From a virus: a stretch of DNA of 30,050 nt. The position numbers and the translations under genes are program-made. The first letter of the stretch is position 1. Each line of letters opens with the position of its first letter. Of this stretch, positions 11,873 through 26,885 are shown piece after piece. The stretch spans positions 1 through 30,050 of IMG/VR virus record IMGVR_UViG_3300047564_000999. The stretch is one strand, 5' to 3'. The notes beneath the pieces were generated by a model. The model was not told where the DNA came from, did not search any database, and saw nothing but the letters and a program-made list of their open reading frames with translations.

Positions 11873-12094
11873 CCAGTGTGCGCTAGGGTCCGAGGCAGGA
11901 TTTTCTAAATGAAAAAATAAAAATACAAAAAATTAAATACCCGGGTATTTTTCCCCACCCCTGGTGATTTTGCACCAGTATAGGTGAAAAAAACAGGTGT
12001 TACAGTTGTTGTTTTTTTACAACAGTTTTTGTTTTATATACCCCGACCCCTCGAGAAATTATTTTTTTTCATCGCCGACCGATGGTCAAAAAAA
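11873..12094. other. Gene-free convergent junction with short inverted repeats
   Basis: No credible gene is seen between convergent transcripts. It holds a perfect 16-bp palindrome at 11935-11950 (AAATACCCGGGTATTT) flanked by A/T runs, a CTGGTG/CACCAG hairpin at 11961-11978, and a CATCG/CGATG hairpin at 12070-12084 flanked by T8 and A8 runs. The A/T-rich palindrome could end transcription on either strand. Short open frames across the region have no ribosome site and low-complexity sequence. Confidence 0.6.
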
Positions 12095-12135
12095 ATCCCC
12101 AGCAACCGGGAGCGAATCGGATTTATGCTGGGGAT
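12095..12135 (-). terminator. Terminator of AAA+ gene whose loop carries an anti-RBS hairpin
   Basis: On the minus strand, ATCCCCAGCA pairs with TGCTGGGGAT (10 bp) and is followed by eight T residues. The apical part is a nested CCG/CGG hairpin whose 9-base loop is ATTCGCTCC, the exact complement of the GGAGCGAAT ribosome-site word used by the early genes. It lies 112 bases past the stop at 12247. Confidence 0.75.
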
Positions 12136-12140
12136 CGGAT

Positions 12141-12196
12141 GTCCGGAACTCCCTCCGGACTGGGCCTGTATTTCGGGAGCGAATCTACTCTACAGG
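12141..12196 (-). ncRNA. Structured 3' region with a second anti-RBS loop (candidate regulatory RNA)
   Basis: Two more hairpins precede the terminator on the minus strand: CCTGTA/TACAGG (12165-12196), enclosing another GATTCGCTCCC, and a perfect GTCCGGA/TCCGGAC hairpin (12141-12160) with loop GGGAGT. Together with the terminator they form a compact structured tail downstream of the AAA+ gene, possibly released as a 3' UTR-derived small RNA. Structure is read by eye, and the RNA is a hypothesis. Confidence 0.45.
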
Positions 12197-12246
12197 TTAC
12201 TCTATGCTAGAGCTGTATACGCTACAGCCCTAGCACTACATGCAAG

Positions 12247-13104
12247 TTAACGCATCAAGCTGATCTGTGCTACACGCTGCCACTTGTTGCCTGGGAATGT
12301 ACGCATCAAGTCTGCTGTCTTAAGTACTGTACGCAGGCTCAGTTCACGCAAACGCTTCTTGTTGGCATCAATAAAGTCAATGAGCTCAGCTTGAGCTTGG
12401 TCAGTAAACTCGTACTCCTCAAGCATGCCATCGCTGACAATCTGCTTGATCCTCAGCATCTTCTCGCGCTCGCCGTGTACAGTGAGATCAATGTAGTGGC
12501 AACGGCTTTCCAATGCTGCCAAGTGATCCTGTAGCTTCTTGCTCTTGATGTTTTGGAAATTAATATTAGTGATAAAGATAGCACCGCCCTTGAACTCAAA
12601 TGAGTTAGGCACACCTTCTGAACGCAGGAGCCTGCTGTCGGTGTTCCAATGGATCATACGGCGCTTACTTGTATCCAAAGCTGCCTTGAGAATGTTCAAG
12701 CTCAAGTCGTCAAGCAGTACTGAGTCACAGTCATCAAACACCAGGATACACTTTTCAGCTGAGTATTCGTAGAGCTTTGAGTAGAGTCCAATAGCTGACA
12801 TTGCACCCTTAACGATCTCAAACTTCTTGAGCTTCTCGTCCCCTGCTACATCTGCCATCAGTGTATGCTTAGCCAGAACTTTCTCAACACCGTAGCTCTT
12901 GCCTACACCGGGCGCACCCGAAACGATCATAGCACGTACATCGCCCTTCTTGACAGCACGGGTCATGTCTTCTAGGATCTCAAAGCGCTCACGCAGACGT
13001 TCAATGATTTCTGCATCAGTTTCTTTTGATTGCTGTGGAGTGTCTTGCTCCAGGCTGATAACACGATAGCCCTGGGGCTTAGTGTCTAGTTTGGATTTTG
13101 CCAT
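12247..13104 (-). CDS. AAA+ ATPase
   Basis: A 285-residue single-domain ATPase: Walker A GAPGVGKS (63-70), Walker B LVFDDCD (121-127), sensor-1-like FITNIN (about 181-186), and an arginine-rich segment near LESRCHYIDL. The N-terminal 50 residues are charged, and the C-terminus is helical with a Lys/Arg-rich lid (KKRLRELSLRTVLK). It may act in remodelling, packaging control or loading; the specific role is unknown. It has its own promoter and AAGGAGCGACAA ribosome site, and ends at a structured terminator with unusual loops. Confidence 0.85.
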   Translation of the reverse strand: MAKSKLDTKPQGYRVISLEQDTPQQSKETDAEIIERLRERFEILEDMTRAVKKGDVRAMIVSGAPGVGKSYGVEKVLAKHTLMADVAGDEKLKKFEIVKGAMSAIGLYSKLYEYSAEKCILVFDDCDSVLLDDLSLNILKAALDTSKRRMIHWNTDSRLLRSEGVPNSFEFKGGAIFITNINFQNIKSKKLQDHLAALESRCHYIDLTVHGEREKMLRIKQIVSDGMLEEYEFTDQAQAELIDFIDANKKRLRELSLRTVLKTADLMRTFPGNKWQRVAQISLMR

Positions 13105-13531: not shown

Positions 13532-13563
13532 AGTTTCGCTCCTATTGCGTTGTTGATGTTAGT

Positions 13564-16864: not shown

Positions 16865-16941
16865 TGGCCTGACCGGAGGGACTCGAACCCCCGACCTACA
16901 GCTTAGAAGGCTGTTGCTCTATCCAGTTGAGCTACGGTCAG
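16865..16941 (-). tRNA. tRNA-Arg (TCT)
   Basis: Acceptor CTGACCG/CGGTCAG, D-arm GCTC..GAGC, anticodon loop CTTCTAA (anticodon TCT), T-loop TTCGAGT; the CCA end is encoded. It is the last of three tandem tRNAs and supplies AGA/AGG decoding. Confidence 0.95.
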
Positions 16942-16945
16942 AAAG

Positions 16946-17023
16946 TGGTGGGCCCCCGGAGAGTCGAACTCCGCACCAATGGATTATGAGTCCACTGCTC
17001 TAACCAACATGAGCTAGAGGCCC
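16946..17023 (-). tRNA. tRNA with CAT anticodon (elongator Met or Ile2)
   Basis: Acceptor GGGCCTC pairs with GGGGCCC (one G-T), anticodon loop CTCATAA (CAT), T-loop TTCGACT, encoded CCA. The first acceptor pair is a normal G-C, so it is not an initiator tRNA. Met or lysidine-modified Ile cannot be told apart by eye. Confidence 0.93.
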
Positions 17024-17030
17024 TAAAACT

Positions 17031-17115
17031 TGGTGCGACTGGCCGGAATCGAACCGGCACGCCTTGCGGCGAGAGATTTTAAGTCTCTTGTGTCTACCTA
17101 TTTCACCACAGTCGC
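17031..17115 (-). tRNA. tRNA-Leu (TAA)
   Basis: Acceptor GCGACTG/CAGTCGC, anticodon loop CTTAAAA (TAA), long variable arm (CGCCGCAAGGCG), T-loop TTCGATT, encoded CCA. First of the three tRNAs on the transcript. Confidence 0.95.
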
Positions 17116-17329: not shown

Positions 17330-17695
17330 TTAGAACGGGGCGTCTTCCATGTCGTCGAGGTCAACTTTAGGAGAAGAGACCTTAGCAGTCTTAGTCTTAG
17401 GAACCTTGACACTGGCTACTGCCTTCTTGACCTGTGATTTAGGTTGCTTGTCATGCTTAGCCAAATACTCGGCGATCGCACCCTGTGCTTCGTCACCTGC
17501 GAACTCTGGTAACGTTGCCAGGAACTTAGCAGCTTCTACCTTGGTCATTGCCTCGGGCAGCTCTGCCAGTTGGATGTCGGTATGACCGTTCTTAGCCAAG
17601 ACTTTGATACGCATGGTATCGTTAGCGAAGCGAGTCTTAGTCTCACCATTGAGAGTAGAAGTGCCTGCTACAGTGTACAGTTTATCGGTTGCCAT
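17330..17695 (-). CDS. Protein with SSB-like acidic C-terminal tip, 121 aa
   Basis: A beta-strand-rich N-terminus (KLYTVAGTSTLNGETKTRFANDTMRIKVL) is followed by an Ala/Glu-rich helical middle, a Lys/Pro/Ser/Thr-rich flexible linker (about 85-110) and an acidic end, DLDDMEDAPF. Bacterial SSB proteins end in an acidic tail closing with a Pro-Phe pair that recruits repair proteins, and this tail looks like it. No OB fold can be confirmed by eye. Its leader carries a 5' terminal hairpin, unlike its neighbours, and its ribosome site is AAAGGCAC. Confidence 0.75.
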   Translation of the reverse strand: MATDKLYTVAGTSTLNGETKTRFANDTMRIKVLAKNGHTDIQLAELPEAMTKVEAAKFLATLPEFAGDEAQGAIAEYLAKHDKQPKSQVKKAVASVKVPKTKTAKVSSPKVDLDDMEDAPF

Positions 17696-20200: not shown

Positions 20201-20223
20201 GGAAGGCCCTTAAAGGGCCTTCC
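20201..20223 (-). terminator. Terminator-like hairpin
   Basis: GGAAGGCCC/GGGCCTTCC (9 bp) with loop TTTAA; CUUUUG follows on the minus strand. It would end the transcript of the gene starting at 20583. Confidence 0.6.
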
Positions 20224-20233
20224 GGTGGCTTCC

Positions 20234-20301
20234 CCGGGAGCGAATCGGTTCTGCCTTTTGCCTAGGGGAGCGAATCCTAGGACTATCAGCGCCTCGCGGC
20301 G
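20234..20301 (-). ncRNA. Structured 3' region with two anti-RBS loops (candidate regulatory RNA)
   Basis: On the minus strand the region reads: CGCC-GCGA-GGCG with a GNRA tetraloop (20290-20301); CCTAGG-ATTCGCTCC-CCTAGG (20261-20281); and CCG-ATTCGCTCC-CGG (20234-20248); then the terminator-like hairpin. Two loops expose the complement of the shared early ribosome-site word. The same pair of loops occurs ahead of the 12095 terminator. A 3' UTR-derived RNA is inferred, not proven. Confidence 0.45.
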
Positions 20302-20310
20302 TGGATTTCT

Positions 20311-20583
20311 TTACAGACTCAAGCCTAAGCTCTTTGCCATATAGCCAAGAGCAACAATCTCACGGCTTGGACGACCTAATGCGTACTCGGTAACAGTAAC
20401 ACCATTACCTGCCTTGCGGGTATTTGCATAGACTGCATAACCATTCTGACGGATACGACTAGCTTCAGCGGCTAGATTACCGACGCCAAAACGCTTGCGA
20501 GCTTCAGCAGCAGTTAACTTCTCACCGTTGTACAATGCGTTGAAGACCTTAAAGGTCTTAGTTTCTGGATTCATGCGTTTCAT
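20311..20583 (-). CDS. Unknown basic protein, possible winged-helix, 90 aa
   Basis: Start at ATG 20583 (MKRMNPETK) with AAAGGAAAT upstream; the longer reading crosses the promoter. TKTFKVFNALYNGEKLTAAEARKRFGVGNLAAEASRIRQNGYAVYANTRKAGNGVTVTEYALG reads as a small helix-turn-helix/winged-helix DNA-binding domain (helix, TAAEARKRFG turn, recognition helix, then beta wing). A possible phage regulator. It has its own weaker promoter. Confidence 0.7.
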   Translation of the reverse strand: MKRMNPETKTFKVFNALYNGEKLTAAEARKRFGVGNLAAEASRIRQNGYAVYANTRKAGNGVTVTEYALGRPSREIVALGYMAKSLGLSL

Positions 20584-22532: not shown

Positions 22533-22562
22533 ATTATAGCACCGGTCATGACCGGTTGTCAA
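22533..22562 (-). promoter_or_regulatory. Operator-bearing early promoter
   Basis: TTGACA-N18-TATAAT with perfect palindrome ACCGGTCATGACCGGT (22541-22556) filling the spacer directly after the -35. Confidence 0.92.
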
Positions 22563-26346: not shown

Positions 26347-26424
26347 CCGGTCGCGACCGGCCGGCCGCACTCGCCTGTGGCAGAAATACAACACCGGTCA
26401 TGACCGAAAACCGGTACAGACCGG

Positions 26425-26453
26425 TTGACAATCTAGAGCTTTGGCAGTATAAT
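26425..26453 (+). promoter_or_regulatory. Plus-strand consensus promoter in the array
   Basis: TTGACA-N17-TATAAT on the plus strand. The operator at 26410-26425 shares its last T with the -35. Transcription would begin near 26460 toward the tandem units. Confidence 0.88.
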
Positions 26454-26459
26454 AAAGAC

Positions 26460-26579
26460 ACTGAGAGAGCGAAAACAACAAGAAAAAACTCCAGGACAGA
26501 TAGCTTCGAAGGACTACAATTCCGGGATGGACGTCGACTGCCACCACCCAGACCTAAGTTAGTTGGTGCTAACTAACTG
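26460..26579 (+). ncRNA. Candidate non-coding transcript
   Basis: About 120 bases run from the predicted start of the plus-strand promoter to an AGTTAGTT/AACTAACT hairpin (8-bp stem, loop GGTGCT, near 26558-26579). The first ATG (26527) opens only 11 codons and there is no ribosome site at a start codon. There is no U-tract after the hairpin, so the 3' end is uncertain. Confidence 0.4.
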
Positions 26580-26629
26580 ACCGGTAGTGACCGGTGTGGC
26601 TTTTGAGCCACAGAGATCCCCCACCTAAA

Positions 26630-26785
26630 TGCGAATCATTCTTATCTAGGTCTTCCCTAAATGCGAATCGTTCTTATTACGATCACCGGTAGCGACCGGT
26701 TATTGCGAATAGTTCTTAATTGTATTACCGGTACTGACCGGTTATTGCGAACTATTCTTGTCTAGGGCCACCGGTCAGTACCGGT
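26630..26785. repeat. 42-bp tandem units combining TGCGAAYNNTTCTT and ACCGGT palindromes
   Basis: TGCGAAY-NN-TTCTT starts at 26630, 26662, 26704 and 26746 (spacing 32, 42, 42). Each of the last three is followed at +23 or +24 by an ACCGGT-N4-ACCGGT palindrome. The 14-base word itself has an imperfect dyad (GAAYNRTTC). The period is four turns of B-DNA, so all sites face the same side. Confidence 0.85.
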
Positions 26786-26885
26786 TTTAGGTCTCCGGTC
26801 GTGACCGAAATCGTGGATTTTCAGCCACAAAAAGTGGTCAACACCGGTTTTTTACTGTCAAAAAGGTTGACCGGTCCACACCGGC

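Follow-up and report, generated by a model that had tools for sequence, protein, structure and literature searches.

Loops in the 3' UTRs of phage early genes complement, and co-vary with, an extended ribosome binding site: a candidate RNA regulator of early translation

In T4-type phages early-gene translation is controlled by the protein repressor RegA, and in phages P1 and P7 the c4 antisense RNA arises by processing of the leader of the operon that it targets, ant. The c4 RNA places complements of ribosome binding sites (RBSs) in its loops, blocks translation and differs in specificity between related phages (PMC12197685). The T4 RNase RegB silences early mRNAs by cutting the GGAG of their Shine-Dalgarno (SD) sites (PMC9409239). 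Small RNAs (sRNAs) of the LhrC type have redundant C-rich loops, one of which is the terminator loop, and these pair with SD sites (PMC4132741). In S. aureus, the icaR 3' UTR is reported to pair with the 5' UTR, which controls translation (PMC3868564). Here we describe a locus which, as judged by sequence comparison, probably encodes a 3'-UTR-derived phage sRNA that prevents translation of early mRNAs by pairing with their extended SD site.

The DNA analysed, referred to here as the window, comprises the 30,050 nucleotides (30 kb) of the virus record IMG/VR IMGVR_UViG_3300047564_000999. From approximately 27.3 to 12.2 kb its minus strand encodes mostly small early-type genes, many of them preceded by near-perfect TTGACA-17-TATAAT promoters, and the window's plus-strand genes include those for a helicase, a primase and a DnaB-like helicase. 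The two minus-strand genes with anti-RBS loops in their 3' UTRs, and the structures found there, are as follows.

12247 to 13104, minus strand: AAA+ ATPase gene, T4 nrdC.10-like (phrog_1250), preceded by an early promoter of its own and the RBS GGAGCGAC; the element lies in its 3' UTR
12205 to 12235, minus strand: 13-bp hairpin just 3' of the AAA+ stop codon
12165 to 12196, minus strand: proximal hairpin CCUGUA...UACAGG, displaying the second anti-RBS loop
12176 to 12184, minus strand: proximal anti-RBS loop AUUCGCUCC
12141 to 12160, minus strand: middle hairpin GTCCGGA-GGGAGT-TCCGGAC, whose GGGAGU loop is not conserved
12088 to 12135, minus strand: distal hairpin, an intrinsic terminator with stem CCCCAGC/GCTGGGG, an anti-RBS loop at its apex and T8 at 12088-12095
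12109 to 12117, minus strand: distal anti-RBS loop AUUCGCUCC, closed by CCG/CGG; GATTCGCTCCC is kept in relatives
20311 to 20583, minus strand: winged-HTH (HTH_39) early gene, with the second loop cluster in its 3' UTR
20267 to 20275, minus strand: second-cluster anti-RBS loop in a 6-bp stem, CCUAGG/CCUAGG
20237 to 20245, minus strand: second-cluster anti-RBS loop, CCG-AUUCGCUCC-CGG
20201 to 20223, minus strand: terminator-like hairpin GGAAGGCCC...GGGCCUUCC, 3' of the second cluster

All of the features described in an earlier, sequence-only reading are present in the window. That reading had reported two copies of GATTCGCTCC near the AAA+ gene, one of them in the apex of a terminator followed by T8, and both lie on the minus strand (12109-12118 and 12176-12185), the 12109 copy forming a 9-nt loop closed by CCG/CGG. 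It had placed the element at one terminator; the AAA+ site is real, but it is not the single site, at least two, and probably three, early genes carrying the element in their 3' UTRs. The minus strand carries four copies of GATTCGCTCC in two pairs, and the second pair, which had been missed, lies in the winged-HTH 3' UTR at 20237-20275 (copies at 20237-20246 and 20267-20276). It had further suggested that the middle hairpin could switch an anti-RBS loop off through its GGGAGT loop. The hairpin is there, but as a conserved part it did not stand, with GGGAG or GGAGC in only 13 of 67 relatives, and the self-pairing GGGAGU off-switch was dropped.

The whole AAA+ 3' tail has a much more stable fold than its shuffles (z -5.8). 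In the predicted fold of the window the unpaired probability of the distal loop is 0.93 or higher; the minimum-energy fold has part of the proximal 12176 loop paired (4 of 9 bases less than 0.1 unpaired), and the comparative structure shows it as a loop. No sigma70-like promoter was found in the window directly upstream of the RNA, and we therefore assume that processing would free it from the mRNA; the 12205-12235 hairpin may possibly form the 5' end of the RNA or a processing structure. Only tRNAs scored above the Rfam gathering score in the window, and a known RNA family was dropped as an explanation, there being only chance-level matches. A tRNA trio (Arg-TCT, Met-CAT, Leu-TAA) lies within the early region at 16865-17115. 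We also note that the nrdC.10-like AAA+ protein is labelled thioredoxin in PP408249.1 (234037-235191; our locus L202) and in MK797984.1, a label that seems to have been carried over in error from T4 nrdC.

The counterpart of the loops is the early RBS. In the window GGAGCGAA/TTCGCTCC occurs 19 times against 0.68 expected from shuffles, a number reached by none of 100 shuffles. The loops had been said to match at least 14 early ribosome sites, and there are indeed 14 minus-strand copies of GGAGCGAA, every one located before a start codon and within 10 nt of it, as listed here.

13535 to 13542, minus strand: target RBS GGAGCGAA
13884 to 13891, minus strand: target RBS GGAGCGAA
14241 to 14248, minus strand: target RBS GGAGCGAA
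14483 to 14490, minus strand: target RBS GGAGCGAA
15339 to 15346, minus strand: target RBS GGAGCGAA
15709 to 15716, minus strand: target RBS GGAGCGAA
16163 to 16170, minus strand: target RBS GGAGCGAA
18991 to 18998, minus strand: target RBS GGAGCGAA
22505 to 22512, minus strand: target RBS GGAGCGAA
23206 to 23213, minus strand: target RBS GGAGCGAA
24544 to 24551, minus strand: target RBS GGAGCGAA
25350 to 25357, minus strand: target RBS GGAGCGAA
25949 to 25956, minus strand: target RBS GGAGCGAA
27333 to 27340, minus strand: target RBS GGAGCGAA

The GGAGCGAA ribosome site is absent from the plus-strand genes of the window, and on long contigs GGAGCGAA-ATG sites are clustered near the AAA+ gene on one strand. 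Among 1,043 promoter-driven GGAG-ATG sites from 149 non-redundant loci, 40% read GGAGCGAA, 90% GGAGC and approximately 0% GGAGG, and of the GGAG sites without a promoter in the same 149 loci 5% read GGAGCGAA. As the CGAA extension is unneeded for 16S pairing, another constraint on this site is likely. Predicted duplexes of the loop with GGAGCGAA sites have about -13 kcal/mol, compared with -6.5 to -9 kcal/mol for the 16S tail with the RBS, and those with plus-strand genes mostly have 0 to -5 kcal/mol, with one at -7.7.

Other sequence features of the early region are recorded here in their own right. Exactly in the -35/-10 spacer of several early promoters is the palindrome ACCGGTCATGACCGGT or a close variant, which is likely to be an operator common to these promoters, for a repressor of either the phage or the host.

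Near 22540, 23260, 24100, 24590, 25400 and 25990, minus strand: promoters with the spacer palindrome

The gene-poor stretch at 26390-26880 has dense ACCGGT repeats and four AAGAA(C/T)(G/A)(A/G)TTCGCA-like units, and is perhaps a replication origin or a repressor array; ATTCGC is common to some of these units and the anti-RBS loop.

Conservation was examined in IMG/VR relatives of the window (clade A), in 80 viral loci gathered via the AAA+ protein and not via the motif; these yielded 67 distinct 3' UTRs, which are metagenomic and not independent of one another. GATTCGCTCCC is present in 66 of the 67, two loops in 63 (spacing 43-88 nt) and a T tract after the distal loop in 55, and the next commonest 9-mers are shifted copies of the loop block or terminator T runs. 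The loops are invariant, and the stems that flank them vary between phages with compensatory pairs. In the distal hairpin 10 of 11 pairs are changed on both sides, including pairs of the outer stem and a bulged A-U/G-C pair, and the proximal hairpin has a covariation score of 0.56, compared with 0.21 when shuffled and at most 0.16 when slid. When 280 anagrams of the loop were tested, the best other one occurred in 2 of 65 UTRs. The pattern TAARTCCGATTNHNTCCCGGY, used to search for variant loops within the clade A hairpin frame, gave no matches, and loop variants were found instead in more distant clades. A raw count of at least 120 15-mer matches was kept out of the evidence, as tens of chance matches are expected in a collection of that size; 17 singleton 15-mer matches share no context and resemble chance matches.

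A second sample, anchored on the winged-HTH protein and likewise independent of the motif, gave 45 distinct 3' UTRs, of which 38 carried the loop; the seven loci without the loop were also without GGAGCGAA-ATG. Overall, loops follow the AAA+ gene in 75 clusters, the winged-HTH gene in 46 and a gene for a third small protein in 14, the latter two counts coming mostly from loci fetched with the motif itself. Each 3' UTR exposes one to five loops, usually two to four. In the 14 loci of the third family the anti-RBS loop comes right after the stop codon; the window has a homologue of this family (17330-17695, minus strand) without the loop.

The strongest evidence for loop-RBS pairing comes from comparison between clades. 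A MAG contig, L361, whose AAA+ protein is 61% identical to that of the window, has no TTCGCTCC; it has four GCCCTC loops, with AGGGCAA/GAGGGCA in its leaders. It also carries, near 790-1040, a tRNA-like trio resembling that of the window. L361 and 42 viral relatives form clade B, in which AGGGCAA (181) and GAGGGCA (162) are the top 7-mers of 400 promoter-driven leaders, and GCCCTCA (32) and TGCCCTC (31) are found in 35 distinct AAA+ 3' UTRs. TGCCCTC (UGCCCUC in RNA) is the exact reverse complement of the clade B RBS GAGGGCA. In more distant relatives (clade C) the RBS is GGAGCCAA and the loops are UUGGCUCC, with the hairpin loop TTGGCTCC in 18 of 18 and compensated stems; clade C was selected by its leader motif, and only its loop side is an independent result. 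Leaders match their own clade's loop in 27.6% (A), 38.5% (B) and 12.7% (C) of cases and the loops of other clades in 0-1.3%, and 3' UTRs carry their own loop in 98.5%, 88.6% and 100% of cases and those of other clades in 0%. The clade loops are predicted to be mostly unpaired.

In the AAA+ tree clades A and B are sisters, each on one side of a branch, and group A2, which has GGAGCGAA and the clade A loop in winged-HTH context, branches outside both, so that the simplest course of events is a joint switch of loop and RBS in the line leading to B; this tree comes from a quick search with long outgroup branches, and its deep joins are unsure. Within clade B, L384 has lost both the loops and the GAGGGCA RBS. 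Several of its leaders have CTCC, about 6 nt and GGAG, a small hairpin over the RBS, as if cis hairpins stood in place of trans control. The AAA+ 3' UTRs of group D (L228, L233-L235, L239, L242, L256 and L261) have a single large loop with TCCTCTGT and TCTCACTC, which the group D leaders ACAGAGGA and GAGTGAGA match; this is a possible but unproven fourth loop/RBS pair, from few distinct loci of low complexity.

The sequence-only reading had proposed that the loops of an RNA pair with the RBSs of early genes. Conservation and compensatory stems lend this pairing strong support, and the fact that loop and RBS have changed together in three clades does so most of all. We propose that the AAA+ 3' UTR, and in the window also the winged-HTH 3' UTR, would give rise to a structured, terminator-ended small RNA whose loops are the exact complement of the extended SD site common to promoter-driven early genes. 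Each loop would pair in trans with GGAGCGAA and keep the 30S subunit off. Being made from early operons, the RNA would accumulate with early transcription and then stop translation of the early set, which it very probably silences as a whole. The AAA+ mRNA itself would be among the targets, with feedback, its RBS GGAGCGAC matching the loop at 7 of 8 bases, and ribosomes would be freed for replication and late genes, which lack the site. Expression, release of a discrete RNA, repression and timing are what we infer from this arrangement, and complementarity alone would be compatible with repression, protection or activation. We hold more tentatively the broader view that each lineage has a private translation code, in which an extended RBS word marks the early regulon and a 3'-UTR loop word reads and silences it, rewritten as a pair at least twice. 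Such a code may serve as a global early-to-late switch, and perhaps as an immunity determinant, taking the place of repressor proteins in many environmental phages, possibly with the AAA+ protein as partner.

The same pairing could be read in other ways. The match of loop and RBS codes within clades and their difference between clades would also be expected if the clade codes were immunity groups and the RNA mainly silenced early genes of incoming related phages, as a c4 RNA with RBS complements in its loops underlies P1/P7 heteroimmunity (PMC12197685). We consider this unlikely as the main role, since the RNA equally matches the phage's own early RBSs and these phages appear lytic, although it is compatible with our main reading. 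It is considerably less probable that the 3' UTR loops control the same mRNA (AAA+ or winged-HTH) alone. The site is found in 14 genes of the window and is dominant in hundreds of unlinked leaders, and the 3' loop of the winged-HTH gene has no match in the RBS of that gene (-2.3 kcal/mol), against which stand the 7 of 8 match of the AAA+ RBS and the 5'-3' UTR pairing known for icaR (PMC3868564).

Equally improbable, in our estimation, is an RNA with a protective or activating effect on early mRNAs, for instance one that shields GGAG against nuclease attack or opens leaders. This reading shares the well-supported pairing and could call on T4 RegB, which targets GGAG (PMC9409239), but RegB was not found in 15 large contigs of relatives, and a duplex on the SD core predicted to be approximately 5 kcal/mol stronger than that of 16S should block the 30S subunit. 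The least credible account is that of ordinary terminators, with an RBS match due to chance, to copying of promoter-RBS cassettes or to a protein-binding loop. The distal hairpin is indeed a normal intrinsic terminator and early cassettes appear to have been copied, but three loop/RBS codes match exactly within and not across clades, a co-variation that already contradicts this account; the loops are moreover invariant inside varying stems, and other anagrams of the loop are nearly absent from these UTRs. Repression in trans by the loops is the reading we prefer.

Queries with the AAA+ protein, the winged-HTH protein and DNA brought up no cultured carrier. PAC2 (PA5oct-like) has no GGAGCGAA-ATG and PM2 has one, and the PA5oct-like AAA+ protein alone as a viral query gave no matches. 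Clade B is carried on a Porticoccaceae MAG contig, which may be a binned phage contig.

If correct, our reading would, as far as searches of the open PMC literature go, make this the first phage RNA to control a whole temporal gene class via one RBS word, which coevolves with its anti-word from lineage to lineage. The avoidance of GGAGG would mean that the RBS, besides binding ribosomes, can act as a regulatory address. The shut-off of early genes in large uncultured phages is made directly testable, and these natural orthogonal RBS/anti-RBS pairs could be of use in translation control. As in trans-acting anti-SD sRNAs, there is a conserved single-stranded seed complementary to target RBSs and an intrinsic terminator with a U tract. 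The likeness to c4 RNA lies in the placement of an RBS complement in RNA loops; c4 acts on one operon (ant) from a leader origin, in contrast to the 3' UTR location here and to one RBS code shared by many early genes, with 14 target sites in the window. The Gram-positive UCCC sRNAs (LhrC, RNAIII, RsaE, SprD) direct CU-rich loops against SD sites, and clade A loops have a CUCC core, but the Rfam search of the window gave no sequence homology or shared RNA family, and LhrC-type RNAs act on individual host genes via UCCC, unlike the 8-nt extended RBS matched here, both sides of which co-evolve in phages. CsrB/RsmZ sponges present GGA motifs in their loops, whereas the conserved loops here are the complement of GGAG. 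RegB is a protein that cleaves RNA, in contrast to a base-pairing RNA. A search of 15 large contigs from these phages and their relatives, contigs which may be incomplete, detected neither regA nor regB, and PAC2 also lacks both, whereas both are present in the T4-type control PM2; this absence is only consistent with replacement by RNA. The icaR mRNA shares the pairing of 3' UTR sequence with a 5' UTR, but in a single gene and in cis, where the proposed phage RNA would act in trans on a whole regulon. The phage RNA would work like the c4 and UCCC sRNAs and differ from them in addressing a whole regulon via one coevolving RBS word.
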